Positions 48,340 to 64,000 of a stretch of DNA of 64,000 bases are shown here, piece by piece. Where the stretch lies: the NCBI GenBank assembly GCA_027013145.1, contig JALUXX010000036.1, forward strand, positions 1 through 64,000. The letters are read 5' to 3'. This DNA comes from Gammaproteobacteria bacterium (GTDB lineage Bacteria > Pseudomonadota > Gammaproteobacteria > 21-64-14). Numbering within the stretch: position 1 is the first letter of the stretch; each line of letters opens with the position of its first letter. Made by a program: the position numbers and the translations under genes. Under the pieces are notes generated by a model that was not told the DNA's origin, did not search any database, and saw only the letters and a list, made by a program, of their open reading frames with translations.

Positions 48340-51327
48340 TCAGGTCGTGAGCTTGCGGTAGATTTCGGAGACCTTGAGGGGGAGTTTGCGGACCTCGTCG
48401 ATCACGGTGTAGTTGACCGCGCCGTACATGTGCGGGAGGTACTCGCGCGCCTCGGTGTCGATGGTGATGCAGTAGGGGTGGATGCCGATGCGCTTGGCCT
48501 CGATCAGGGCCATGCGTGTGTCCTCGATGCCGTAGTCGCCGCGGTAGCCGTCGAGGTCGTCGGGCTTGCCGTCGGAGAGGGTGATCAACAGGCGCGTGCG
48601 GGCATCGACCGCCTGCAGCAGGCCGCTCAGGTGGCGGATGACCACGCCCATGCGGGTGTAGTCCTGCGGGCGGATCCCGCTGATGCGCCGGCGCACCTCC
48701 TCGCCGTAGGGCTCATCGAAGCGCTTGACGCGGTAGAGTTCGCAGCGCTTGCGGGTCATGCCCGAGAAGCCGTAGATGGCGTAGCGGTCGCCGAGCGTCT
48801 CCAGGGTCTCGCAAAGAAGGATCAGCGACTCGCGCTCGGCGTCGTTGATCCAGCCCTTGGTCGAGCCGGACATGTCGACCATGAACATCACGGCGATGTT
48901 GCGCTCGAGCTTGTGCATCTTGGTGAACAGGCGATCGCTCATCTCGCGCCCGGTGCGCGCGTCGGCGTAGGCCTCGACCAGGGCGTCGATGTCGACGTCG
49001 TCGCCGTAGGGCTGGCGTTTGAGCAGCCTGTCTTCGCCGCGCAGGACCTCGAAGATGCGGCGCAACTGCAGGATCAGGCCGCGGTGACGGCTCAGCGTAC
49101 GGGCGACGAAGTCGTCCTCGCCGGGGCGTACGTCGATCTCGCGCAGCACCGCCCAGTTCTTGCGGTAGTGACGCCGCTCATAGTCCCATTCGTTGTACAG
49201 CCACGCCCCCTCCTCGTGGTACATCCCCTTCCAGACGTCGCGCGGGTCGCGCGCCTCGTCGGGCGCGCCGCGGCGCGCGTAGGCGCCGTCGCCGGCGGGC
49301 ACGAGCCAGTCGTCGGGCACGTCGCCGAGGTCCTGGATGATGGAGGCCATGGTGCCCTTGACGTCGTCGGGCGGAGCGACCGGGCGACCGTCGAGTTCGA
49401 GGCGCACGGTGAAACCGTCCGGGGTCGCGGGGTCGACCTCGCGCACGGCGCGAAAGGACGGCGGCGGTGCGGGCTCGGCGCCCGCGCCGGCCGCTTCGCT
49501 GCGGCGCCGCTGCTCCTCGGCGAGGCGCGCGAGCGCGATGCGCAGCCCGTCGCGGTCGCGTTCGAGCCGCGCCGCGCGCACCGCCGCCACCGCCTGCGGG
49601 TCGAGTTCGCCTTCATAGCCGGCCGGCTCGGGCAGCGGGGCGTCGTAGAGCCCGCCGAGGAGCGCGAGGCTGTCGTCGGGTCCGGCGCCGGGGGCCCGCA
49701 GGCGTGCTGCGGCCGCCTGCCAGGGCGCGGGCGGCGTTGCGCTCCCGGTCGCCGCACGCAGGGCCTGCATGTCGCGGTGCAACCCGGGCAGGTCGCGTTC
49801 GATGCACGCGTCCAGGCGCAGCGTCTCGAGCGCGTGGAACACGCGCAGGGCACGGGCCGGGTCGGGGTGGCGCGCGATCGCGTCCGCCACGTCGATGCGC
49901 CAGGTGCCGTACCAGGTCTGCGCCCACTGGTGCGCGGCCATCGCCTTGTAGAGGCGGAAGTTGTCCTCGCGCTGCGCAAAGCGCGCGAGCAGCGGGGGCA
50001 GGAACAGGGTTTCGGTGTCGGTACGGGCCGGTGTCCCGGCGGCGAGGCGCAGGGGGCGCCCGGCGAGGCCGTGCACGAAGGCCTCGAGGACGCCGGCGAC
50101 CTCCTCCAGGGCGACGCCGTGGGCCCGTTGCGCCCGGCGCTCGGAGAAGGCCTCGACCGCATCCAGCGCCGCCAGGCCGGCGTGCAGGCCGGCGGTGTCG
50201 TAGGCGTCGACGGCCTGGAGGAGCCAGGCCTCGACGTCCGCTTCGCTCATTCGCGCCAGGGCCGCCGAGACGCGCGAGGCGAAGCGGAACGCAAGTTCGG
50301 CGTTGGTGTGCGCGATGATGCCGGTCCAGCGCAGCGCGAACTCCTGTTGCGGGCGTTCCAGGCCGGCGATGGCCCGCGCGGGTTCGGCGGCGGTGCGCCG
50401 CGAGGACAGGACCGGGTCGAGGTGCGCGTCGAGGCGTTCTTCGACCGCCTCGGCCTCCAGCCGCCGCTGCTGCGCCGCGGGCGCCTCGCGCGCCCAGTGC
50501 ATGGCCGCGGCGGTCTCGAGGATGCGCCCGTCGGCGGTGGCGAGCCCGAGGGCGTGCATGCGCAGCGCGCGGCCGGGAAAGACCTGGCGCAGGAGTTGGG
50601 CGAGGCTCTCGGGGGACCAGTCGCGGCTGCGAAAGGAGACCCACAGGCCCAGCGCGTCCGGGTTCAGGAGGGCGGCGAGGCGCGGGAACAGGCGCGGGAG
50701 GTCGCGCTGCGGGTCCCAGATGTGGGCCCCGGGCCCGCGCTGGAAGCCGGGCGGGTCGGCCAGGATCAGGTCGTAGCGCTCGCGCCGATGCCCGGCCCGC
50801 TGGACGAAGGTCGGGATGTCCTCGAGGACCCAGGTCACACGCTCAGCGGCCTCCCCGGCGCTGCGCCGGGCGCGCTCGAGCTGTTCCGCGTCGGTGGCCA
50901 CGTGTACCACCCGCGCGCCCAGGGAGGCCGCGAGCGCGGTGCCGGTACCGGGGCCGGCGAAGAGGTTCAGGACCGCGGGGGCGGCGCCCGGGGCGGCGCG
51001 GAGGCGATCCTCCAGCCAGCGCCAGCAGGCGGCCTGGTCGGGGCGCAGGCCGATGTCGCCGGCCGCGCCGAGGGTGCAGCGCAGCGCGCGCCCGGCGATG
51101 CGCACCCCCCACTCGCGTCCCGCGTCCGCGCGCGGGCGCCATTCCCCGCCGGCGGTGAAGGTCCAGTCGGCGCGCCAGGGGGGGCGTGCCGGTGCGCATC
51201 CGGCCGCGGCCGGATGCGGCCGGTCGACCGTGCGGGTCCCGAGGCGTTCGAGCAAGCGGCCGGCGCCGAAGTCCAGCAACTCGTAGTCGTCGGCGGGGGT
51301 GGCCAGGATGCCGTCGGGCAGGTCCAT
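48340..51327 (-). CDS. cbbO: Fusion: SAM-dependent methyltransferase domain + CbbO rubisco-activase subunit
   Basis: A 995-residue protein. Residues about 1-279 look like a complete class I SAM methyltransferase of the RlmI/RlmKL-like group. They show LLDFGAGRLLERLGTRTVDR, RPDQAACWRWLEDRL, the SAM loop NLFAGPGTGTALAASLGARV and LILADPPGFQRGP. Residues about 280-995 are CbbO: RPQQEFALRWTGIIAHTNAE, WYGTWRIDVADAI, RHYRKNWAVL and a C-terminal von Willebrand A domain with metal-site motif DMSGS (818-822) and TLSDGKPDDLDGYRGDYG. CbbO with CbbQ removes inhibitory sugar phosphates from rubisco. Normal CbbO is about 700-780 residues, so the N-terminal domain is an addition. No stop or good internal ribosome-binding site separates the parts. 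It follows cbbQ by 57 bp. Confidence 0.88.
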   Translation of the reverse strand: MDLPDGILATPADDYELLDFGAGRLLERLGTRTVDRPHPAAAGCAPARPPWRADWTFTAGGEWRPRADAGREWGVRIAGRALRCTLGAAGDIGLRPDQAACWRWLEDRLRAAPGAAPAVLNLFAGPGTGTALAASLGARVVHVATDAEQLERARRSAGEAAERVTWVLEDIPTFVQRAGHRRERYDLILADPPGFQRGPGAHIWDPQRDLPRLFPRLAALLNPDALGLWVSFRSRDWSPESLAQLLRQVFPGRALRMHALGLATADGRILETAAAMHWAREAPAAQQRRLEAEAVEERLDAHLDPVLSSRRTAAEPARAIAGLERPQQEFALRWTGIIAHTNAELAFRFASRVSAALARMSEADVEAWLLQAVDAYDTAGLHAGLAALDAVEAFSERRAQRAHGVALEEVAGVLEAFVHGLAGRPLRLAAGTPARTDTETLFLPPLLARFAQREDNFRLYKAMAAHQWAQTWYGTWRIDVADAIARHPDPARALRVFHALETLRLDACIERDLPGLHRDMQALRAATGSATPPAPWQAAAARLRAPGAGPDDSLALLGGLYDAPLPEPAGYEGELDPQAVAAVRAARLERDRDGLRIALARLAEEQRRRSEAAGAGAEPAPPPSFRAVREVDPATPDGFTVRLELDGRPVAPPDDVKGTMASIIQDLGDVPDDWLVPAGDGAYARRGAPDEARDPRDVWKGMYHEEGAWLYNEWDYERRHYRKNWAVLREIDVRPGEDDFVARTLSRHRGLILQLRRIFEVLRGEDRLLKRQPYGDDVDIDALVEAYADARTGREMSDRLFTKMHKLERNIAVMFMVDMSGSTKGWINDAERESLILLCETLETLGDRYAIYGFSGMTRKRCELYRVKRFDEPYGEEVRRRISGIRPQDYTRMGVVIRHLSGLLQAVDARTRLLITLSDGKPDDLDGYRGDYGIEDTRMALIEAKRIGIHPYCITIDTEAREYLPHMYGAVNYTVIDEVRKLPLKVSEIYRKLTT

Positions 51328-51384: not shown

Positions 51385-52197
51385 TCAGAACAGCGACGCG
51401 CTCAGTTCGTTGACGGCGGCGAGCATTTCGGGATCGTCGGTCAGGGCCTGGGCGACCGCGGTGCGGCAGGCGGTCACCGGGGCGATGCCGCCGGCGATGA
51501 GCTTCGCCGCGTGTACGAGCAGGCGCGTGCTCGCGCCTTCGTCCAGCCCGCTGCCCTTGAGGTTGCGGGTCATGTGGGCGAACTTGACCAGCTTCTCGGC
51601 CACCGCCGCCTCGACGCCGGTTTCGCTGCGCACGATGCGCTGTTCCAGCTCCACTTCGGGGTAGTCGAACTCCAGCGCGACGAAGCGCTGGCGGGTGCTC
51701 TGCTTGAGGTCCTTGAGGACGCTCTGGTAGCCCGGGTTGTAGGAGATGGCCAGGCAGAACTCGGGCGAGGCCGCCAGCAGCTCGCCGCGCTTCTCGATCG
51801 GCAGCACGCGCCGGTCGTCGGCCAGCGGATGGATCACCACGGTGGTGTCCTTGCGCGCCTCGACGACCTCGTCGAGGTAGCAGATGCCGCCGCTGCGCAC
51901 GGCGCGCGCCAGCGGACCGTCGACCCAGACGGTCTCGCCGCCCGTGACGAGATAGCGTCCTACCAGATCCGAGGCGGTGAGGTCGTCGTGGCAGGAGACG
52001 GTGATCAGCGGGCGCTTCAGGCGCCAGGCCATGTGCTCCATGAACCGCGTCTTGCCGCAGCCCGTGGGTCCTTTGAGCAGCACCGGGAGCCCGTTGCGGT
52101 AGGCGGCCTCGAAGACCTCGATCTCGTCGCCGACGGGCTCGTAGTAGGGCTCGTCCTCGATGAAGTATTCTTCAGGTTTCAGCGCCTTCGCCTGCAC
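51385..52197 (-). CDS. cbbQ: CbbQ, MoxR-type AAA+ ATPase of the rubisco activase
   Basis: Hexameric ATPase that with CbbO remodels inhibited rubisco. The 270-residue product has [20 protein letters not shown], Walker [41 protein letters not shown], Walker [14 protein letters not shown] and the sensor [14 protein letters not shown]. These are all close to CbbQ/NirQ/NorQ; the adjacent CbbO favours CbbQ. GTG 52197 gives the usual CbbQ N-terminus; the frame is open to a GTG at 52272 (295 residues). No rubisco gene is nearby. Confidence 0.9.
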
Positions 52198-52522
52198 CGG
52201 GGTCGCCTCGCCGCCTGCCGGATCCTGCGTGTAAGGTACCCGCCGGGCCGGTCGCGCCGCAACAATCCACACGGCCCATAAGGGCTATAGGGCAGGTCTA
52301 TCCGCGCATCGGCAGATTCGATCCGTACGGACGGGGCCTTCGGTGGCGCCGCCCCACGGTTGGCGGTATCCTTTTGCGCCACTTCGAAGCTTCATCAATT
52401 AGAAACGGTTCCGTCCCGGCACCCCCGAAGGGACCGCCGCGGAGTGCACACGCCCCGCGGACGTGGCCCGGGGGGCGGGTCCCGCGCAGCACGGGTGGCC
52501 GGGCCGAAACGGAGGGCAATCC
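52198..52522. other. Divergent region between cbbQ and qmoA
   Basis: About 325 bp, expected to carry promoters for cbbQ-cbbO (minus) and the qmo/hdr operon (plus). A short AT-richer patch (52381-52405) is the best place for the qmo promoter. I see no definite operator. GGAGGG at 52511-52516 is the qmoA ribosome-binding site. Confidence 0.4.
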
Positions 52523-53809
52523 ATGTCGGACGCAGTGGCGACCAGCCAGTCCATCCTGGTGGTGGGCGGGGGGATCAGCGGCATCACCGCGGCGCTGGAG
52601 GCCGCCGAGTGCGGCAAGCAGGTGGTGCTGGTGGAGAAGAACCCCTCGATCGGCGGCCGCGTCAGCCAGCTCTACAAGTATTTCCCCAAGCTGTGTTACC
52701 CGAGCTGCGGCCTGGAGATCAACCTGCGGCGGATCCGCGCCAACCGCAATCTGCGGCTGATGACGCAGACCGAGCTGGTGGGTCTGAGCGGGACGCCGGG
52801 CGATTACACCGCCACCCTGCGAATCGCGCCGCGCTACGTCAACGACAACTGCACGGGCTGCGGTGCATGCGCCGAGGCGGTGCAGGCGGAGTTCGACGAC
52901 GAATACAACTACGGCATGAAGAAGCGCAAGGGCGCCTATCTCCCGTTCAACATGGCCTATCCGCCGCGCTACGTCCTCGATCCGCGCATCCTCGGCACCG
53001 AGGACGCCGAGCGTGCCAAGGCGGCCTGCAAGTACGGGGCGATCGACCTGGACATGCAGGAGCGGACGGTCGATCTGCACGTAGGCGCGGTGATCTGGGC
53101 CACCGGCTGGCGCCCCTACGACGCGGCCCGCATCCAGCCCTACGGCTATGACCGCTTCGCCAACGTCATCACCAGCGTGGAGTTCGAGCGCATGATGGAT
53201 CCGTTCGGGCCCACCGGCGGCAAGCTGCTGCGCCCCTCCGACGGCAAGCCGGCGAAGGACGTCGCCTTCATCCAGTGCGCCGGATCGCGCGATCGCAACC
53301 ATCTCAAGCACTGCTCGCGCATCTGCTGCATGGCCTCTCTCAAGCAGAGCACCTATCTGCGCGAGCAGTTCGGGGACGAGGGGCGGGCGACGATCTACTA
53401 CATCGACATCCGCGCCATCGACCGGCTCGAGGACTTTTACGCGCGCGTCAAGGCCGACGAGAACGTGCGTTTCGTAAAGTCCAAGGTTGCGAGCATCACC
53501 GAGGACAAACAGACCGGAAACGTCATCCTCAATGGTGTCGATACGGAGGGTTACCACCGCTACAGCAACCCGCACGACCTGTGCGTGCTGGCCATCGGTA
53601 TGGAGCCGAGCGTGGACCGCTCCGCCTTCCCTGTCGAGGTGGCGGTGGACCAGAACGGGTTCATCGAGGCGGCCCCCGAGAACGGCGCGATTTTCGCCGC
53701 CGGCTGCTCGTCCGATGCGCTGGACGTGAACCGTTCGGTGCAGAGTGCGACCGCGGCGGCGCTGCGGGCCATACAGGTGGTCAACCGGGTCGCCGGAGTG
53801 GAGGGCTGA
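52523..53809 (+). CDS. qmoA: QmoA/HdrA-like FAD protein
   Basis: Cytoplasmic flavoprotein of the heterodisulfide-reductase family, thought to pass electrons between APS reductase or related partners and the membrane. The 428-residue protein has the FAD site ILVVGGGISGITAALEAAEC, EKNPSIGGRVSQLYKYFPKL, CYPSCGLEIN, and CAGSRDRNHLKHCSRICCM, typical of QmoA. A ferredoxin-like run, CTGCGACAEAV, has only three of the four cluster cysteines. ATG 52523 follows GGAGGG. It is the first gene of qmoA-qmoB-hdrC-hdrB, with 3-bp spacing to qmoB. Confidence 0.88.
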   Translation: MSDAVATSQSILVVGGGISGITAALEAAECGKQVVLVEKNPSIGGRVSQLYKYFPKLCYPSCGLEINLRRIRANRNLRLMTQTELVGLSGTPGDYTATLRIAPRYVNDNCTGCGACAEAVQAEFDDEYNYGMKKRKGAYLPFNMAYPPRYVLDPRILGTEDAERAKAACKYGAIDLDMQERTVDLHVGAVIWATGWRPYDAARIQPYGYDRFANVITSVEFERMMDPFGPTGGKLLRPSDGKPAKDVAFIQCAGSRDRNHLKHCSRICCMASLKQSTYLREQFGDEGRATIYYIDIRAIDRLEDFYARVKADENVRFVKSKVASITEDKQTGNVILNGVDTEGYHRYSNPHDLCVLAIGMEPSVDRSAFPVEVAVDQNGFIEAAPENGAIFAAGCSSDALDVNRSVQSATAAALRAIQVVNRVAGVEG

Positions 53810-53812
53810 GTC

Positions 53813-56071
53813 GTGGCGGACGTGAAGATCGGAGCGTACATCTGTAAGGGTTGCGGGCTGGGTGAGCGCCTGGACACCCAGGCGCTGGCGACGATCGCCA
53901 CGCGCGAGGGGAAGGCGGCGTTCGCCAAGGAGCACGACGTGCTCTGCTCGCAGTCCGGGGTCGACATGATCCGCAAGGATATCGACGCCGGCGAGGTCGA
54001 CCGCATCGTGCTGGCCGCCTGCTCGCGGCGCGCCAAGACCGATGCCTTCGGCTTCGATACCGTCGCCGTCTCGCGCTGCAACCTGCGCGAGGGAGTGATC
54101 TGGACGCAGCCCGACACCGAGGAGGCGCGTGAACTGACGCAGGAGATGGCCGAGGACTACGTGCGCATGTCCTGTGCCGAGGTCAAGCAGATGATCCCGC
54201 CGCATCCGAACGAGCTGGCCGAACGCAACCGCCATGTACTGGTGGTCGGCGGCGGCATCAGCGGCCTGACCGCCGCGGTGGAGGCCTCGCGCGCGGGCTA
54301 TCCGGTAACCCTGGTGGAGAAGTCCGGCGCGCTCGGAGGTTGGGCGGCGCAGTTGTGGCGTCGCGTGCCGACGCGGGCCCCGTACGCCGATCCGCAGGAC
54401 ACCGGCGTCGCCGAACTCGTCGCCGAGGTCGAAGCCGATCCCGGGATCACCGTCTATCTGAATTCGACTGTGACCCGCACCAGCGGTGCGCCCGGGCGTT
54501 TCGCTGTGGACATCACCGCCGAGAGCGGCGGGACGGCGACCGAGAACTTCGGTGCCATCGTCCAGGCGACCGGATTCACCCCCTACGACGCGAACCGGCT
54601 GCCCGAGTTCGGTTTCGGCAAGAGCCCGGACGTGGTCGATCAGTTGGGGCTGGAGGCCCTGGCGCGCGCGGCCGACGGCGGCGCGATCAAGCGTCCGTCG
54701 GACGGCAAAGAGGTGCGCAGCGTGCTGTTCATCCAGTGTGCGGGTCAGCGCAGCACGGCCAAGGGACATCTGCCTTACTGCTCCGGGCACTGCTGCAACA
54801 CCTCGATCAAGCAGGCGATGTATTTCAAGGACTCGAACCCCGACATCGATACGACGGTGCTGTATACCGACCTGCGTACGCCGGGCAAGGGCGAGGATCT
54901 GTACCGCAGCGGCCAGCGCAAGGGCGTGATCTTCACCAAGGGCGTCGCCCAGGAGGTCAAGCCCGGCGGGCGGGGTCTGCAGGTCCGCTTCAAGGACCTG
55001 ATCCTCGATCAGGAGGTCGAGGTCGATGCGGATCTCGTCGTGTTGGCCACCGGCATGGTGCCCAACTCCGGCGTGGACATCGAGGCCGCCCTCAAGAAGG
55101 AGGCGGCCGGAGCCGAAGGCGGCGCGGACGGGGAGGCGGCCGCCGATGCCGACGCGGCGCCCGTCCAGGAGGTCTCGATCCTCAACCTGGACTATCGCCA
55201 GGGTCCGGACCTGCCGAAGCTCATGCATGGATTCCAGGACTCCCACTTCATCTGCTTCCCCTACGAGACGCGGCGGACCGGGATCTACACCACCGGGCCG
55301 GTGCGTCGGCCGATGGACATCGCGCAGGCCCTCGAGGACGCGACCGGCGCGGCGCTCAAGGCGATTCAGGCCCTGGAGAACGCGGCACTCGGGCGCGCCG
55401 CCCACCCGCGCTCCGGGGACTTGAGCTATCCGAGCTTCCATCGCGACGGCTGCACCCAGTGCAAACGCTGCACGGTGGAGTGCCCGTTCGGCGCCATCGA
55501 CGAAGACGAGCAGCGCTATCCGATGTTCAACGAGGCCCGCTGCCGGCGCTGCGGCACCTGCATGGGGGCCTGTCCGGTGCGCGTGATCTACTTCGACAAC
55601 TACTCGATCGATACGGTGGGTCAGCAGATCAAAGCCGTGGACATGCCGGAGGAGAGTCAGGAGAAGCCGCGCATCCTGGTCCTCGCGTGCGAGAACGACG
55701 CCTACCCGGCGCTGGACATGGCGGCCATGAACCGCATCGGCTACAGCGCCTACGCGCGTGTCATTCCGGTGCGCTGTCTCGGTTCGGTCAATTCGATCTG
55801 GGTGACCGACGCCCTCAACGGCGGCTACGACGGCGTGATGCTGATGGGTTGCCAGAAGGGCGACAACTATCAATGCCATTTCGTCAAGGGCTCGGAACTG
55901 GCCCACTACCGCATGAGTAAGGTCTACGACACGCTCGAGCAGTTGCAGCTCGAGAAGGATCGGGTCGAGACGCATGAGGTGGCGATCACCGACATCCAGC
56001 GCGCACCGCAGCTCATCGAGGCGATGGCCGAAACGGTCAAGCGCGTCGGCCTCAGCCCGTTCAAGTTCTAG
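53813..56071 (+). CDS. qmoB: QmoB-like HdrA/MvhD fusion protein
   Basis: A 752-residue FAD/iron-sulfur protein. Domains in order are an N-terminal cysteine segment (GAYICKGCGLGE), an FAD domain (VLVVGGGISGLTAAVEASRA, EKSGALGGWAAQLW), the CAGQRSTAKGHLPYCSGHCC cysteine block, two [4Fe-4S] motifs (CTQCKRCTVECPFGA and CRRCGTCMGACPVR), and a C-terminal MvhD-type domain (ILVLACENDAYPALDMAAMN through LMGCQKGDNYQCHFVKG). This architecture is that of QmoB. The GTG start (53813) is 3 bp after qmoA. An Ala/Glu-rich insert near residues 430-450 is variable. Confidence 0.88.
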   Translation: MADVKIGAYICKGCGLGERLDTQALATIATREGKAAFAKEHDVLCSQSGVDMIRKDIDAGEVDRIVLAACSRRAKTDAFGFDTVAVSRCNLREGVIWTQPDTEEARELTQEMAEDYVRMSCAEVKQMIPPHPNELAERNRHVLVVGGGISGLTAAVEASRAGYPVTLVEKSGALGGWAAQLWRRVPTRAPYADPQDTGVAELVAEVEADPGITVYLNSTVTRTSGAPGRFAVDITAESGGTATENFGAIVQATGFTPYDANRLPEFGFGKSPDVVDQLGLEALARAADGGAIKRPSDGKEVRSVLFIQCAGQRSTAKGHLPYCSGHCCNTSIKQAMYFKDSNPDIDTTVLYTDLRTPGKGEDLYRSGQRKGVIFTKGVAQEVKPGGRGLQVRFKDLILDQEVEVDADLVVLATGMVPNSGVDIEAALKKEAAGAEGGADGEAAADADAAPVQEVSILNLDYRQGPDLPKLMHGFQDSHFICFPYETRRTGIYTTGPVRRPMDIAQALEDATGAALKAIQALENAALGRAAHPRSGDLSYPSFHRDGCTQCKRCTVECPFGAIDEDEQRYPMFNEARCRRCGTCMGACPVRVIYFDNYSIDTVGQQIKAVDMPEESQEKPRILVLACENDAYPALDMAAMNRIGYSAYARVIPVRCLGSVNSIWVTDALNGGYDGVMLMGCQKGDNYQCHFVKGSELAHYRMSKVYDTLEQLQLEKDRVETHEVAITDIQRAPQLIEAMAETVKRVGLSPFKF

Positions 56072-56082
56072 GAGATGGAGCG

Positions 56083-56709
56083 ATGAGCGATCTCAACACC
56101 GCCATGGTGGAGAAGTACCGCAACAGCTTCCTCAAGGAGGTGGAGGCGAATGTCGAGGAAGGCGAATGGGTGAAGATGTGCATGCAGTGCGGCGTGTGCT
56201 CGGGGTCCTGTCCGCTCGGGCCCTACTGGGAGCACCCTCCCCAGGAGATCTTCATGATGATCCGCGCGGGCGAGCGCGACGAGGTCCTGAAGTCCACCTC
56301 CATGTGGATGTGCACCTCGTGCTACAACTGCATCGTGCGTTGTCCGCGTGAACTGCCCATAACCCACATCATGCATGGGCTTGCCCATTACGCCGAGCGT
56401 CTGGGGATCGCCCCGAGGCAGAATCCGACGCGCAAGTTCGCGCTGATGTTCTGGGACAACCTCTCCAAGACCGGTCGCGTGAACGAGCCGGTGCTCGGCG
56501 TCGGGCTCTACTTCATGAACGGGATCAAGGAAGGGATTCGGACTGCGCTGCGGATGGCGCCGGTCGGCTTGGGGATGCTCAGGACCAAACGGTTCAACCC
56601 CTTCGCCTTCCTGTTCCATCGCGGCTGCAAGGGGAAGAAGGACATCCACAAGATCATCCGTAAGGCGCGCGAGCTCGAGCTTGCCAAGGCCGCCAAGTTC
56701 GGCGGCTAG
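56083..56709 (+). CDS. hdrC: HdrC-like iron-sulfur subunit
   Basis: Small electron-transfer subunit with two [4Fe-4S] clusters. The 208-residue protein has CMQCGVCSGSCPLG and CTSCYNCIVRCPRE, the standard HdrC pair, and then a basic C-terminal part lacking membrane helices. Lack of helices distinguishes it from QmoC, which has a membrane cytochrome domain. It starts 11 bp after qmoB with a GGAG ribosome-binding site. It presumably hands electrons between QmoB and HdrB. Confidence 0.9.
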   Translation: MSDLNTAMVEKYRNSFLKEVEANVEEGEWVKMCMQCGVCSGSCPLGPYWEHPPQEIFMMIRAGERDEVLKSTSMWMCTSCYNCIVRCPRELPITHIMHGLAHYAERLGIAPRQNPTRKFALMFWDNLSKTGRVNEPVLGVGLYFMNGIKEGIRTALRMAPVGLGMLRTKRFNPFAFLFHRGCKGKKDIHKIIRKARELELAKAAKFGG

Positions 56710-56722
56710 GAGGGTAGTCGAT

Positions 56723-57625
56723 ATGGCCAAGAAGGAATATATGTTCTATCCGGGATGTTCGGCCGAGCGGTTGGCCTCCGCCTCGAACTACGAGGTCTCG
56801 GTGCAGGCCATGTGCGACGTGCTCGACATCCAGCTCAACGAGATCCCGGACTGGAACTGTTGCGGCGCATCGATCGGCTACGCCGGAGGCGGCGAGCTGC
56901 CGCGCCTCGCCCTGAATGCGCGCAATCTCGCGATCGCCGAGCAGGAACACCCGGAACAGGACATCGTCGCCACCTGTGCGGCCTGCTGGCTCGGCGCCCG
57001 GGAGACCAAGGACCGCCTGGAAGAGGACAGCACGCTGATGCGCGAGACCAACGAGGCGCTGGCCGAGGCCGGGCTCAAGTACGAGGCCAAGCAGCGTGTG
57101 CGGCACATGGTCGAAGTGCTGATCGAGGATATCGGCTACGAGGAACTCGGCAGCCACGTGAAGAAGCCGCTCAGCGGGATGAAGATCGCGGGCTATGTCG
57201 GCTGCCAGACCAACCGGCCGTTCGGAATCGAGGGCGAATCCTTCGAGAATCCCAAGTACCTCGACAAGATGATCGAGACGGTCGGGGCGGAACCGGTCGA
57301 GAAATACGACAAGAAGGTCCAGTGCTGCGGCGGGGCCCTGGCGTTTTCCGAACCCGAGAAGAGCCAGGCGATGATCAAGGACATCATCGAGGCGGCCTAC
57401 GACGGCGGCGCCGACATGATCGTCACTCCCTGCCCGGTGTGCCAGCTCAACGTCGAGGTCTATCAGGGGCAGATCAACAAGAAGTATCGGACCAAGTTCG
57501 AGATGCCGGTGGTCTACTATAGCCAGCTCATGGGCGTCGCCTACGGCAAGAGCGCCAAGCAGGTCGGCCTCGACGGCCAGGTCATCCGCGCCCGCAAGCT
57601 CGAGGAGCTCGCGGACAAGAAGTAG
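56723..57625 (+). CDS. hdrB: HdrB-like subunit with two CCG domains
   Basis: Catalytic-type subunit of heterodisulfide reductase. The 300-residue protein has two cysteine-rich CCG motifs: the first spans FYPGCSAE, NCCGASIG and CAACW; the second spans GCQTN, QCCGGALAF and CPVCQLN. In methanogen HdrB these hold noncubane [4Fe-4S] clusters. The start ATG 56723 is preceded by AGGAGGG, and it is the last gene of the operon, closed by a strong terminator. The natural substrate in a bacterium is not known from sequence. Confidence 0.9.
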   Translation: MAKKEYMFYPGCSAERLASASNYEVSVQAMCDVLDIQLNEIPDWNCCGASIGYAGGGELPRLALNARNLAIAEQEHPEQDIVATCAACWLGARETKDRLEEDSTLMRETNEALAEAGLKYEAKQRVRHMVEVLIEDIGYEELGSHVKKPLSGMKIAGYVGCQTNRPFGIEGESFENPKYLDKMIETVGAEPVEKYDKKVQCCGGALAFSEPEKSQAMIKDIIEAAYDGGADMIVTPCPVCQLNVEVYQGQINKKYRTKFEMPVVYYSQLMGVAYGKSAKQVGLDGQVIRARKLEELADKK

Positions 57626-57799: not shown

Positions 57800-58774
57800 A
57801 TGAGCACTCAGATTTTCCGACGCATGCTGGCCGCGGCCGCCGTCACGGCGCTCTGTGCCGGCACTGCCTGGGCCAAGACGGACGCCGCTGCGGGGGCGCG
57901 GACGGCCGCTCCGGCGGGTACGGCGACCGTTCAGGTGACCGCTTCGGCGCGTCGCGAGGGCCCCCTGCTGTGGGTGGGTTGCGGGATCAGCAAGAAGTCC
58001 TACATGATCGCAGCCGCCAAGGCCTTCACCGCCAAGACCGGCATCAAGATCAAGGTCGAGGGCGGCGGAGCGACGCGCGGGATCCGCGACGTGGCCGACG
58101 GCAAGGCCGACTTCGGCGGTTCCTGCCGTTTCATTATCCCCGGGGTGCGCGCCGAGATGGGCGACATCCTCAAGCCGGTCGCCTGGGACGCGCTCGTGGT
58201 GATCACCCACCCGGGGAACCCGGTCAAGAACATCACCCTGGACCAGGTGCGCGGCGTCTACCTGGGAAAGATCACGAACTGGAAGCAACTCGGCGGGCCC
58301 GATAAGCCGATCCACCTGTTCGTGCGCAAGGGCGATATCTCCGGGGTCGGGCGCACCATCCGCAAGCTGGTATTCGGCAACTACGATCAGCAATTCGTGG
58401 CGTATAAGACTTTCCGTTCTTCCGGACCGCTGGAGAAGGCGGTGGAGAAGGACCCGGACGCGATCGCGATCACGGGCATCAGCAGCGCCCGCAAGCGCAA
58501 GGTCGATATCCTGGCGCTGAACGGGAAGCGGCCGACCTACGACAACATCAAGGACGGCAAGTACGTCCTGTATCGGCCGCTGTACCTGGTCGTGAATCCG
58601 GACAGCCCCAAAATCGCGGAGGTGAACCAGTTCGTCAAGTTCATCTACAGCCCGGAGGGGCGCCGGGTCATCCGCGCCAACGGCGTAGTGCCGTACATGG
58701 ACGCGTTGCAGCTCGTGATGAAGCAGGTCGCCCAGGACCAGCAGGCGCGCGCCATGGGGCTGTACCGGCACTGA
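57800..58774 (+). CDS. PstS-like periplasmic substrate-binding protein
   Basis: A 324-residue exported protein. The signal peptide MSTQIFRRMLAAAAVTALC ends at about AWA (residue 25). The mature part has VGCGISKKSYMIAAAKAFTA, VEGGGATRGIRDVADGKADF, GGSCRFI, GVYLGKITNWKQLGGPD and ISGVGRTIRKLVF, all characteristic of phosphate-binding PstS-type proteins (PBP-like fold). No pst permease or ATPase genes lie nearby, so it is an orphan; the ligand may be phosphate or another oxyanion. It is a single-gene unit between two terminators. Confidence 0.82.
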   Translation: MSTQIFRRMLAAAAVTALCAGTAWAKTDAAAGARTAAPAGTATVQVTASARREGPLLWVGCGISKKSYMIAAAKAFTAKTGIKIKVEGGGATRGIRDVADGKADFGGSCRFIIPGVRAEMGDILKPVAWDALVVITHPGNPVKNITLDQVRGVYLGKITNWKQLGGPDKPIHLFVRKGDISGVGRTIRKLVFGNYDQQFVAYKTFRSSGPLEKAVEKDPDAIAITGISSARKRKVDILALNGKRPTYDNIKDGKYVLYRPLYLVVNPDSPKIAEVNQFVKFIYSPEGRRVIRANGVVPYMDALQLVMKQVAQDQQARAMGLYRH

Positions 58775-59005: not shown

Positions 59006-59980
59006 ATGAAAACGACTTTCTCCAAGCCTCTCTTCCGTCACGTCACTTTTCGCCAGCTCCAGATCTTTGAGGCGGTCGTTCGTAACGCAAGCTTCACCAA
59101 GGCGGCGGACGAACTCTTTCTTGCGCAACCCACGATCTCGCTTCAGATGAAGAAGCTGGCGCAGGTCCTCGGCCTCCCTCTCATCGAGCAGGAGGGTAGG
59201 GATGTGCGAGTGACCGACGCCGGCCAGGATCTCTTCGCGGCCTGCCAGGAAGTGATCCGCGTTTTCGAGAATCTCGAAACGCAGGTCGCCGATCACAAGG
59301 GCCTGCGACGGGGCAAATTGCGTCTCGGCGTCGTGACCACTGCGAAGTATATCGCCCCGGAGCTTCTCGCCGCGTTCGGCGAGCGCTATCCGGGGATTCA
59401 GTTCGCCATGAAGGTCAGCAACCGCGACGAGATCATCCAGCGGATTCAGGGCAACGAGGACGACCTCTACGTCATGGGCCAGGTGCCCGATGACGAGGTC
59501 GAAGTGGAAGCCATTCCCTTCGCGCCCAATCCGCTCGCGGTCATGGCCCAGCACGGCCACCCCTTTGCCCGCAGGCCGCCGCCCCTGCCCCTGGCGGCCA
59601 TCGTCGAAGAACCGTTTCTTGCCCGCGAAGCCGGCTCGGGGACTCGTCATGCCTACCTGAGACTCTTTGCGGAGAAAGGGCTCAAGCCCAACATCGTCAT
59701 GGAGCTGGGGAGCAACGAGGCGATCAAGCACTCCGTCGCCAGCGGCCTGGGGATCTCGATTCTTTCGGTTCACTCCCTGGCTCTGGAGGGGGCCGGCGGA
59801 CCGATCCAGATCCTGGACGTGGAGGGTTTCCCCATCCTCCGCAAGTGGTATCTGGTCCGTCCGCGTGGCAAGCGCCTGTCATTGACGGCACAGAAATTCC
59901 TCGAGTTCTCCATCGCCCAGGAGGACTTCATCACCCGCAGGCTGGTGGCGCTGTGGCCGGATTTGTCCCGCTATCTCTGA
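59006..59980 (+). CDS. LysR-family regulator (CbbR-like), next to the dab operon
   Basis: A 324-residue activator/repressor. The N-terminal winged helix reads VTFRQLQIFEAVVRNASFTK, AADELFLAQPTISLQMKKL. The C-terminal ligand-binding domain (RGKLRLGVVTTAKYIAPELL, FAMKVSNRDEII) resembles CbbR, which senses metabolites of CO2 fixation. ATG 59006 (MKTTFSKPLFRHVTFRQ) is chosen; the frame is open to 58928 with unlike sequence. It directly precedes dabB-dabA on the same strand, so it probably controls inorganic-carbon uptake. Confidence 0.88.
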   Translation: MKTTFSKPLFRHVTFRQLQIFEAVVRNASFTKAADELFLAQPTISLQMKKLAQVLGLPLIEQEGRDVRVTDAGQDLFAACQEVIRVFENLETQVADHKGLRRGKLRLGVVTTAKYIAPELLAAFGERYPGIQFAMKVSNRDEIIQRIQGNEDDLYVMGQVPDDEVEVEAIPFAPNPLAVMAQHGHPFARRPPPLPLAAIVEEPFLAREAGSGTRHAYLRLFAEKGLKPNIVMELGSNEAIKHSVASGLGISILSVHSLALEGAGGPIQILDVEGFPILRKWYLVRPRGKRLSLTAQKFLEFSIAQEDFITRRLVALWPDLSRYL

Positions 59981-60061
59981 GCGGGCGGGATCGGGTGCGT
60001 ACCACGCGCCCGGTACGCGTCTCCAACCGTCCGGTAAATTTATATTTATAAATGTTACAAA

Positions 60062-60090
60062 TTGACTATTTAAATTTGAATAAATAATTC
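60062..60090 (+). promoter_or_regulatory. AT-rich promoter region of dabB-dabA
   Basis: TTGACT (60062-60067) is followed after 17 bases by TAATTC (60085-60090); TAAATA at 60081 is an alternative -10. The stretch 60030-60095 is strikingly AT-rich in a GC-rich genome. It contains ATTTATAAAT and other T-N11-A-like sequences of the kind bound by LysR proteins. The dabB ribosome-binding site GAGGAGA follows at 60123-60129. Confidence 0.5.
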
Positions 60091-60136
60091 TCCATCGCTA
60101 GAGTCTCCCGCGACGATTCCATGCGAGGAGAAAGCA

Positions 60137-61849
60137 ATGGACGGAATATTGCCTCCGGGTTGGTTGACGGGCGCCTGCCTGGCGATGATGCCCGCCGTCC
60201 TGCTTCTGGCCGCGCTCCCGGGCGTGAAGGCCACGCGAGGCGCGGCCCTGGCCGCCCGCAGGCGGGTGCGCCGCGCAGCCCTGCTCGCGCTGGCGGGCGC
60301 GGTGCTCGGGGATCTGGCCTTCGGCCTGGGGGCCCGGCTCGACCTCGTGCCGGTGCGGCTGCCCCTGCCCGGATTCGGCTTCGACCTGCCCCTGTCGATC
60401 GCCGTCAACGGCCTGACCATGGTGTTGGCGACGCTGGTGTCCTTCGTCGTCGCCGTGATCGCCCACTACAGCGTGCGCTACCTGGACGGGGACCCCCAGC
60501 AGGCCCGGTTCTTCCGCTTGCTCGCCTTCACGGCGGCGGGCTTTCTGGTCGCGGTGATCGCCGGCAACCTCGGGCTCTTCACCTTGGCCATCATCGCCAC
60601 CGGTTTCAGCCTGCACAGGCTGCTCGCCTTCTACGGCGACCGGCCCAAGGCCGTCATGGCGGCCCACAAGAAGTCGATCTTCAGCCGGACGGCGGATCTG
60701 CTCCTGGCGCTGGCGACCCTGTCGGTGGGCCAGGGCGTGGGAAGCCTGCAGTTCGACGCCATCGCCCGGGCCGCGGAGCGCTCCGGCACCCTCCCGCTTT
60801 CGTTGCAGGTCGCCGCATGGCTGATCGTCGGGGCGGTGATTTTGAAGAGCGCGCATTTCCCGTTTCAGGGCTGGCTGATTCAGGTCATGGAGGCGCCGAC
60901 GCCCGTCTCCGCCCTGATGCACGCCGGCGTGGTCTACAGCGGTGCAATCGTGGCCTTGCGGACCAGTCCGCTGCTGGTTCGAGAACCCGAGGCGTTGCTC
61001 TTTCTCGGGGCGGTGGGCCTGTTGACGATCATGATCGCCTCCCTGGTCATGACCACACAGACGGCGGTCAAATCGATGCTGGCGTGGTCCACCACCGCGC
61101 AACTGGGTTTCATGTCCCTGGAGCTGGGCCTCGGGCTCTTTCCCCTGGCGCTCATGCATCTCGTGGGGCACTCGCTCTACAAAGCCCACGCCTTTCTGTC
61201 CTCGGGCAGTGTCACGGACCAGCTGCGCCAGGTCCCCGCCGCTGGCAAGGAGACCCCTGGTCCGGCGGCGTGGCTCGCAATGGTGATTCTCGGCCTGTGC
61301 ATCTCGGTCGCCGGTGCCTGGTTCATCGGCGAGGATCCGTTCGTGGGCGCCGTCCCGATTGCGCTGGTCGTCATCGTCGCCGTGGCGGTGTCCCAGATCC
61401 TCTTCAAGGGTTTCCAGTTCGGTGGCATGGTCGAGCGGGCCACGGCCGTAGCGATCGCGACCGGCATGGGAGTGCTCTATTTCCTGCTGCACCGGCTGTT
61501 CTCAGGCTGGTTCGCGCCGGACTTGGCGGCTGCGCTGGAAGCGGGCGGCGGGCCCGGGCCCGGGCCCGGGCTTGGGTTTGGGCTTGCCGCAGCCGCGGCG
61601 GTGGGGTTCCTGCTCCTCGGCTGGCTCCAGGGGCCGGGGCGCGCGCGGTTGCCCGAGCGGCTGCAGGTGGCGCTGTACATCCACTTGTACAACGGGCTGT
61701 ACGTCGATTACTGGGTGGAGCAATTCTCCCATCGCTTCTGGTCGGATAAGGTCGGCGTCGAACCTCGGCGGCGCAACCTGGCGCTCGAATCGTTGCAGAG
61801 CATGGCCCGCAACCGCGAGGTCCTGGTCGAGTCGGGGGTCGTGCGATGA
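60137..61849 (+). CDS. dabB: DabB, membrane subunit of the DAB inorganic-carbon transporter
   Basis: A 570-residue polytopic protein of the NADH-dehydrogenase subunit 5/antiporter family. Recognisable parts are ITGFSLHRLLAFYGDRPKAV-type helices around residues 150-190 (IIATGFSLHRLLAFYGDRPK), LKSAHFPFQGWLIQVMEAPT, VSALMHAGVVYSGAIVALR and MHLVGHSLYKAHAFLSSGSV. The Lys and His positions typical of proton-conducting subunits are kept. With DabA it is thought to couple cation flow to CO2 hydration in the cytoplasm. ATGA overlap with dabA shows coupling. There are no other nuo genes, so a respiratory role is unlikely. Confidence 0.93.
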   Translation: MDGILPPGWLTGACLAMMPAVLLLAALPGVKATRGAALAARRRVRRAALLALAGAVLGDLAFGLGARLDLVPVRLPLPGFGFDLPLSIAVNGLTMVLATLVSFVVAVIAHYSVRYLDGDPQQARFFRLLAFTAAGFLVAVIAGNLGLFTLAIIATGFSLHRLLAFYGDRPKAVMAAHKKSIFSRTADLLLALATLSVGQGVGSLQFDAIARAAERSGTLPLSLQVAAWLIVGAVILKSAHFPFQGWLIQVMEAPTPVSALMHAGVVYSGAIVALRTSPLLVREPEALLFLGAVGLLTIMIASLVMTTQTAVKSMLAWSTTAQLGFMSLELGLGLFPLALMHLVGHSLYKAHAFLSSGSVTDQLRQVPAAGKETPGPAAWLAMVILGLCISVAGAWFIGEDPFVGAVPIALVVIVAVAVSQILFKGFQFGGMVERATAVAIATGMGVLYFLLHRLFSGWFAPDLAAALEAGGGPGPGPGLGFGLAAAAAVGFLLLGWLQGPGRARLPERLQVALYIHLYNGLYVDYWVEQFSHRFWSDKVGVEPRRRNLALESLQSMARNREVLVESGVVR

Positions 61850-64000
61850 GCGCCCCGCTCGCGCAGGGCACGGGCGATCTTTTCGATCGGGTCGTGCGCC
61901 GGATCGCCCCCGTCTGGCCGTTGAGCGGCTACGTCGCCGTCAACCCCTACTTGGGGTTCACCGAACTGCCGTTCTCCGAGGCGGCCGCCTATCTGCACGG
62001 AACCGTCGGTGAGCGGCTGATCATGGACCGCCGGTGGTATGCGCAGGAGGTCGAGCACGGGCGGCTCACGCTGGCGGATATCCTGGAGGCGGCGCAGGCG
62101 CTCGGGCTCGACGCCGACGAGGCCGCGTGGAGGGCCTATCTGGGGCAGACCCCGGGCGGCCCGGTCGCACATCTGCGGACCTTGCCGGAACTGCTGGACC
62201 GGCGCGGGCGGGCGCCGGTCTCAAGGTATGTCGTCGAACAGATCAGCCGGCTCCTCGCGGCCTACTACGATCGCGGGCAGGCGACCTGGGCGTTTCCGAG
62301 AAGGCCGGGATCGGGGCTGTTCGCGGCGTGGCGACACTACACGCTGCATGACCGCAGCCTCGGACCGATGGGGCTCAAGGCCGTACGGGCCCGGTTGCTG
62401 CAGCTGCCCGCCGACGCCGCGGCGGCCCGGGCGTGGGCGCGGCAGACCCTGGGGATCCCCGGGGCGGCGGAAGAGGCCTACTTCCTGGTGCTGCTGAAAT
62501 CCGTCGGGGGATGGGCCGGCTGGTGTCGCCACCTCCTCTGGCAGGCCGAGCTGGAGGGACAGACTCACCCGGACCTGGGGGACCTGCTCGCCATCCGCAT
62601 GGCCTGGGAGGCACTTTTGCACAGGACGGCGGAGCCCGCGGTCCTGGAGCGGTGGCGGCGCCAACTTCACGGGTGGATCGCGGCCGACCGGGGCGCCGAG
62701 GCCGAAGCGGCCCGTCGCGGCGAGGTCCTGCTCCGCGCCTCGGAGATCGCCTTCCGGCGCCGGCTCGCGGCGGGCATCCGGCGGGGGCGCGTCTCGACCG
62801 CGGCCGCGGCGCGGCCCAGGGTGCAGGCGGCCTTCTGCATCGACGTGCGCTCGGAGGTCTACCGTCGGCATCTGGAGAGCGCCATGCCGGGGTTGGAGAC
62901 GATCGGCTTCGCGGGCTTCTTCGGCGTGATGCTGGACTATCGGCGCCACGGGGACGCGGTGCCCCGGCCGCAGACGCCGGTGCTGCTCAGACCTCAGGTC
63001 CATGTGCATGAGCGGATCCCGGCGCCGGTGTTCCGGCGGCGCCTGCGCCGCTTGCGGCGCAGCGCAGTCTGGAAACACTTCAAGCTTTCGGCGGCCTCGT
63101 GTTTCTCCTTCGTCGAAACGGCCGGGCTTTTCTACGTGGGGCGACTGCTCCTCGACGCCCTGGGCTGGCATCGTCCCTCGCTTCAGCCGGACCGCGCCGG
63201 ACTCACGGCGTGGGAACGGGCCGGCGTGGAGTGCGAGTTCTCGACCTCCCTGACGCTCGAGGAACGGGTGCGCATGGCCGAATCCATCCTCACGGGCTTG
63301 GGGCTGACGCGCCGGGTCGCGCCCGTGGTGCTCCTCGTCGGCCATGGGGGTTCCACGACCAACAACCCGCACCGGGCGGCGCTCGATTGCGGGGCGTGTG
63401 CCGGCCAGACCGGTGAGGTCAACGCGCGGGCGGCGGCCGCGCTCCTGAACGACCCGCAGGTGCGAAAGGCGCTGGCGGGCCGCGGCTGGGAGCTGGATGA
63501 ACACTGCCGCTTCCTGCCCGCGCTGCACGATACCACCACCGATCGGGTGGAGCTTCTGGAGTGCCCGGACGATTCGTATCCGTACGCCGGAACGCTCGTG
63601 GAACTGCGCGCGGCGCTGGCGCGGGCCGGTGACCTCACCCGGCTGGAGCGGATCGTGCGTCTGGAGCCGGGGCTGCGCGATCCCAACGGCGCGGCGAGGA
63701 ATGTGGCTTCGCGCGCCGGGGACTGGTCCGAGGTGCGCCCCGAGTGGGCGCTGGCGGGTAACGCAGCCTTCATCGCCGCCCCCCGCTGGCGCACGCGCGG
63801 GATGAATCTCGCCGGGCGGGCGTTCCTGCACGACTACGACGCGGCGAAGGACCCGGATTTCTCGCTCCTGGCTCTGATCATGACCGCGCCGCTCGTGGTG
63901 GCCAACTGGATCAACCTGCAGTATTACGGCTCCACCGTGGACAACGAGCGCCAAGGCTGCGGCAACAAGGTCCTGCACAACGTCGTCGGCGGCACCGTGG
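61846..64000 (+). CDS. dabA: DabA, carbonic-anhydrase-like subunit of the DAB transporter (3' truncated by window end)
   Basis: Open from ATG 61846 to the window edge, 718 codons. It is a DUF2309/UPF0753 protein with a beta-carbonic-anhydrase-like zinc site: C331 and D333 in AAFCIDVRSEVYRRHLE, H500 in LLVGHGGSTTNNPH and C515 in LDCGACAGQTGEVNAR. The 15-residue spacing between His and the second Cys equals that known for Halothiobacillus DabA. IAPVWPLSGYVAVNPYLGFT at the N-terminus is also typical. It should hydrate CO2 vectorially to bicarbonate with DabB. Only the C-terminal end is missing. Confidence 0.94.
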   Translation, partial: MSAPLAQGTGDLFDRVVRRIAPVWPLSGYVAVNPYLGFTELPFSEAAAYLHGTVGERLIMDRRWYAQEVEHGRLTLADILEAAQALGLDADEAAWRAYLGQTPGGPVAHLRTLPELLDRRGRAPVSRYVVEQISRLLAAYYDRGQATWAFPRRPGSGLFAAWRHYTLHDRSLGPMGLKAVRARLLQLPADAAAARAWARQTLGIPGAAEEAYFLVLLKSVGGWAGWCRHLLWQAELEGQTHPDLGDLLAIRMAWEALLHRTAEPAVLERWRRQLHGWIAADRGAEAEAARRGEVLLRASEIAFRRRLAAGIRRGRVSTAAAARPRVQAAFCIDVRSEVYRRHLESAMPGLETIGFAGFFGVMLDYRRHGDAVPRPQTPVLLRPQVHVHERIPAPVFRRRLRRLRRSAVWKHFKLSAASCFSFVETAGLFYVGRLLLDALGWHRPSLQPDRAGLTAWERAGVECEFSTSLTLEERVRMAESILTGLGLTRRVAPVVLLVGHGGSTTNNPHRAALDCGACAGQTGEVNARAAAALLNDPQVRKALAGRGWELDEHCRFLPALHDTTTDRVELLECPDDSYPYAGTLVELRAALARAGDLTRLERIVRLEPGLRDPNGAARNVASRAGDWSEVRPEWALAGNAAFIAAPRWRTRGMNLAGRAFLHDYDAAKDPDFSLLALIMTAPLVVANWINLQYYGSTVDNERQGCGNKVLHNVVGGTV

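Follow-up and report, generated by a model that had tools for sequence, protein, structure and literature searches.

The window, the whole 64,000-nucleotide stretch of gammaproteobacterial DNA analysed here, carries on its minus strand an ATG-initiated, uninterrupted open reading frame of 995 codons (48340..51327), whose 995-aa product consists of a methyltransferase-like head, a CbbO body and a VWA domain. The methyltransferase-like N-terminal domain, of the 2igt family (PF10672), comprises residues 1-284 (50476..51327, minus strand); the helical middle region of CbbO follows at residues 285-705 (49213..50475, minus strand) and the C-terminal VWA region at residues 706-993 (48349..49212, minus strand). 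FAGPGTGTA is situated at about residues 123-131, DPPGF, which constitutes motif IV, at residues 191-195 (50743..50757, minus strand), and LATADGRILETAAAMHW closes the methyltransferase-like domain. D818, S820, S822, T891 and D919 were read from the sequence as the MIDAS residues of the VWA region. The initial annotation had described this uninterrupted frame, without giving its strand, and had named the three motifs, all of which are present; its coordinates are likewise correct.

The domain-database search that it had proposed identifies both partners in the one frame: Methyltrans_SAM (PF10672) at residues 71-214, with an E-value of 8.7e-6 that lies slightly below the curated Pfam cut-off, and a VWA domain at residues 813-920. 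Residues 9-254 match PDB 2igt with an E-value of 6e-29, and residues 706-993 match the VWA domain of NorD, which is the best PDB match of the tail. Foldseek searches with predicted models returned the same two structures, 2igt being the best match of the head, and both the fold and the homology over the whole domain place the head in the 2igt family. Confidence in the models is limited to the core of the head and the greater part of CbbO, and the whole-protein model, with a pTM of 0.44, is too low in confidence to position the head. From residue 285 onward, the protein aligns at 55% identity with a stand-alone paralogue of 742 aa from the same genome, beginning at the start of the paralogue; together with the Pfam and NorD matches, this confirms the earlier description of a CbbO region ending in a VWA domain. 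This second CbbO of the genome (C9:28476-30584; L002, L070), also a member of the broad subfamily, has no CbbQ or rubisco nearby and groups with L027, L028 and L031. We considered and rejected an internal start from which CbbO would be translated on its own, as the other fused proteins do not conserve the sole nearby methionine, Met 276; no ribosome-binding site near Met 276 was evident by eye.

The initial annotation had left room for a chance in-frame fusion of two neighbouring genes and had proposed a count of genomes with both domains in one ORF. Identical architecture in a single open frame is found in 14 other gammaproteobacterial genomes and partially in four more, and this conservation establishes a genuine fusion of a methyltransferase-family domain with CbbO-VWA and refutes the chance event. 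The scan for relatives, which took a single genome for each species of bacteria and archaea in GTDB r220, recovered L007, L008, L009, L032 and L034 in full and L022 and L035 in part. Nine further fusions, each one open frame of 1000-1023 codons, came from 369 genomes drawn evenly across the Gammaproteobacteria; the fused copies in G068 and G186 are cut or broken. An artefact, in which a missed stop codon or frameshift joins two neighbouring genes, could draw only on the predominance of metagenome assemblies among the related records, and the identical single frame in 14 other genomes, including a single-contig genome of 100% completeness with the full fusion (G123), makes it exceedingly improbable.

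The fusion is present in about a fifth of the genomes holding the qmo-linked CbbO type. In a tree without outgroup, all fused CbbO sequences and the stand-alone L057 form one group with a support of 91. When distant rubisco CbbO sequences were included as outgroup, the window copy was placed beside stand-alone CbbO, outside the fused group, and a p-AU of 0.036 resulted when the fused rows were constrained to group without L057. Because the fused CbbO sequences and L057 group together, one fusion followed by later losses is the simplest history and is preferred, if not proven; two independent fusions are disfavoured by the same outgroup-free grouping.

A gene for a cbbQ-type MoxR AAA+ ATPase (51385..52272, minus strand; AAA_5 and CbbQ_C domains, qmo-linked CbbQ clade) is located 57 bp upstream of the fused gene. 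Divergent from this pair are qmoA, encoding an HdrA-like flavoprotein (52523..53809), qmoB, encoding an HdrA-like protein with a FlpD/MvhD domain (53813..56071), hdrC (56083..56709) and hdrB (56723..57625), all on the plus strand and named from gene architecture and matches to the HdrA, HdrB and HdrC families. In sulfur oxidation, Qmo is the complex with which APS reductase exchanges electrons. A QmoAB-HdrBC set has been described for sulfur oxidisers (PMC4136832). The AAA+ and VWA genes adjoin each other and qmoAB-hdrCB, as a NorQD-like pair would require. A scan for promoters and terminators around cbbQ and qmoA gave nothing above chance, and the part of the literature on qmoA and cbbQ that was consulted reports no link between them. 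Beside hdrB, a PstS-family binding protein is encoded at 57800-58771; a gene of this family is also found near the lone methyltransferase gene of G133 and G245 (L086 10617-11513; L087 3252-4091). Positions 59006-63999 encode a LysR regulator resembling CbbR and, after it, NuoL-like DabB and DabA, which probably form a DAB pump for inorganic carbon, and sat-aprBA lies immediately beyond the window end (L167).

The proximity to qmo is recurrent. The fused gene is also situated by qmo in L007, L008, L032, L089, L090, L092, L095, L096 and L098, with extra genes between the CbbO locus and qmo in L095 and L096, and in L100 the qmo genes lie ahead of the fused gene, with cbbQ not in view. Stand-alone CbbO is found by qmo in L010, L012, L013, L015-L018, L020, L026, L033 and L036. 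Six fused loci were not seen by qmo (L034, L035, L091, L093, L094 and L097). In G359, which carries the fusion, cbbQ adjoins qmoA on another contig, and a QmoA match is absent in two fused-gene genomes, G264 and G100. Of the 43 genomes holding both CbbO and qmoA, 24 have the two no more than 15 kb apart; of the 32 with CbbO and a listed gene for the rubisco large subunit, none has them this close. Among the 369 class genomes, the odds ratio of CbbO is 40 with QmoA versus 3.9 with rubisco. With one rubisco-positive genome per family, CbbO is present in 21/30 that hold qmo as against 1/45 without it (p 1e-10), and at this sampling the association of CbbO with rubisco is absent where qmo is missing.

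The initial annotation had called the protein a rubisco-activase subunit, and in this sense it would be an adaptor acting in trans on form I rubisco, with the head methylating or recognising that enzyme. Homology to CbbQ and CbbO is consistent with such a role, as are the rubisco genes in 43 of the 58 genomes with the qmo-linked CbbO type and the Calvin-cycle genes, CbbR-like regulator and DabA/DabB of the window. The positional tie to rubisco is nil, however, and the statistical one disappears once qmo is accounted for. Each HK-tailed rubisco inspected also has a dedicated CbbQO pair. The two form I rubiscos of the same genome are both on other contigs (C5, C16); that of C5 is HK-tailed and accompanied by a dedicated CbbQ and CbbO, and that of C16 ends in KLDLA. 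HK-tailed rubiscos of G123, G205, G290, G100, G091 and G133 adjoin CbbQO of other clades. CbbQO requires a KLDxxHK/R tail, and carboxysomal enzymes without CbbQO end in KLDxx (PMC8718961); the sole rubisco of G046 ends in KLDVG, yet the fused gene is present near qmo. Two fused-gene genomes, G264 and G359 (97 and 100% complete), yielded no rubisco large subunit in a family search, and both have aprA. Taken together, this makes the rubisco adaptor quite unlikely.

The phylogenies point in the same direction. The qmo-linked CbbO clade is separate from the rubisco-linked one with 100% support, and the CbbQ clades likewise with 99%, the comparison set consisting of CbbQO beside rubisco in the sampled genomes rather than of biochemically characterised sequences. 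By these trees, the window gene is a member of a third CbbQ/CbbO subfamily and not a rubisco CbbO. The label of rubisco-activase subunit is therefore abandoned, as position, phylogeny and co-occurrence tie the gene to qmo and HK-tailed rubiscos have CbbQO of their own. CbbO of this subfamily is not obligatory for Qmo, since 19 of 61 qmo-positive genomes lack it, and some members of the broad set have other targets, because twelve rubisco-negative genomes carry CbbO without qmo. Further targets of the CbbO family are likely. We also note CbbO-like proteins in G040, G045, G185 and G286 (L028-L031) without qmo or a strong rubisco match, some of which are extended at the N-terminus by a sequence that does not resemble the methyltransferase head, and, in the same genome as the window, a NorQ/NorD-like pair of a CbbQ-like protein (60%) and a VWA protein with a 942-aa frame (C37:2642-6080; L071).

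In three genomes, G133, G245 and G095, the same degQ/hsp20 neighbourhood, its gene names assigned by eye, encodes the methyltransferase as a protein of its own. A QmoA match is absent in all three, and aprA and rubisco are kept. The aprM position before aprBA is taken in both G133 and G095 by a gene for a membrane protein, identified by position only; in sulfur oxidisers, aprM and qmo occur as alternatives (PMC2211403). The methyltransferase gene of G133 lies between C-terminal remnants of two genes, cbbQ before it and cbbO after it, and the rubisco-linked CbbQO of this genome is intact. Loss of the qmo-type CbbQO thus coincides in these genomes with the absence of qmo, and not with a loss of rubisco or APS reductase. 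The ancestor of the G133-type locus may have possessed either three genes or the fusion.

Outside the gammaproteobacteria, stand-alone genes for the 2igt-family methyltransferase are common (L135-L161); within them the methyltransferase is rare and mostly seen fused to CbbO. A stand-alone set of 31 sequences was assembled from relatives in other proteobacteria and from G133, G245, G095 and G061. The T-G of motif I, the acidic residue after beta-2 and DPPx[FYW] are kept in all 31. In contrast, DPPx[FYW] is kept in 1/19 fused copies, the window copy alone, and the T-G of motif I likewise in 1/19, that of L045 only (p 1e-12 for each). The window head has Pro-Gly in motif I, with Pro for Thr, and Ala at the beta-2 acid, so that DPPGF, a motif which the 18 other fused copies have lost, is the one mark retained of the three. 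The fused heads are on long branches, that of the window being the longest, and the stand-alone methyltransferases of G133, G245 and G095 are on short ones. In close fused pairs, dN/dS in the head is about 0.1-0.3, similar to the middle region of CbbO; the fold of the head is thus under purifying selection, and catalysis nonetheless seems lost.

The fused head is most likely without catalytic activity, judging from these residues, and the window head, with DPPGF kept, may still be active. It had been described as a complete methyltransferase, which does not stand, as catalytic and cofactor-site residues are gone in most fused copies and partly in that of the window; the same losses leave the suggested link to rubisco or rRNA methylation unsupported. 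A SAM-dependent methyltransferase that is still active, at least in the window, could modify rRNA or a Qmo subunit and couple modification to remodelling. The DPPGF of the window and the nearby metK and ahcY would suit such an enzyme, as would the intact-motif stand-alone copies that G133, G245 and G095 retain after loss of CbbQO. The two substitutions and the longest branch of the window head, and the missing DPPx[FYW] in 18/19 fused copies, argue against it, and we regard it as unlikely. Since intact-motif stand-alone copies outlast the loss of CbbQO, the ancestral methyltransferase had a job of its own.

The reading that we favour, as rather probable, is that the fused protein is the VWA adaptor of a CbbQ-type MoxR AAA+ pair serving QmoAB-HdrCB and not rubisco, with the head as a captured, probably non-catalytic module. 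Qmo is proposed as the physical target from gene context and co-occurrence. If the pair works as NorQD and RavA-ViaA do, the adaptor would be carried by a CbbQ hexamer and its MIDAS site would contact the target, QmoAB-HdrCB being the candidate. ATP-driven motion could then remodel the target, such that flavin or Fe-S cofactors are let in or a blocked state is freed, and the captured 2igt-family head may help to recognise the target or sense a small ligand. The pair would thereby be a candidate maturation or repair system for Qmo. More tentatively, and with somewhat less than an even chance, what reads as a rubisco activase in sulfur-oxidising gammaproteobacteria may be a dedicated Qmo maturation or repair machine, and in one lineage its AAA+ adaptor may have acquired a methyltransferase as a head for recognition or ligand sensing, without catalysis. 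If so, the extra cbbQ/cbbO genes of sulfur-oxidising autotrophs and animal symbionts need to be separated from readings as rubisco activation, and a testable candidate maturation factor would be available for the partner complex of APS reductase. The sequences also line up as an evolutionary series, with the methyltransferase as an enzyme of its own at one end and as a decayed module fused into an AAA+ adaptor at the other.

Among known systems, the CbbQO rubisco activases of A. ferrooxidans (Q1O1, Q2O2, Q3O3) likewise combine a MoxR AAA+ ring protein and a VWA/MIDAS adaptor in one operon (PMC4660213, PMC8718961), and the CbbQ of the window is about 60% identical to theirs. The window pair differs from them in belonging to separate clades, in a CbbO identity of about 30-35% that is confined to the VWA region, in its location by qmo rather than rubisco, and in the extra methyltransferase-like head. 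The head resembles the Agrobacterium SAM-dependent methyltransferase 2igt and its PF10672-like family over the whole domain; unlike the stand-alone enzymes, the fused copies have lost one or more of the three marks. NorQD (PMC9976466) and RavA-ViaA (PMC10585395) share the pairing of a MoxR AAA+ protein with a VWA adaptor, which the ring uses on a respiratory metalloenzyme. Their N-terminal domains are unrelated to the head described here, whose adaptor has a target proposed from genomics alone; the N-terminal domain of NorD has been proposed to confer target specificity (PMC9976466).
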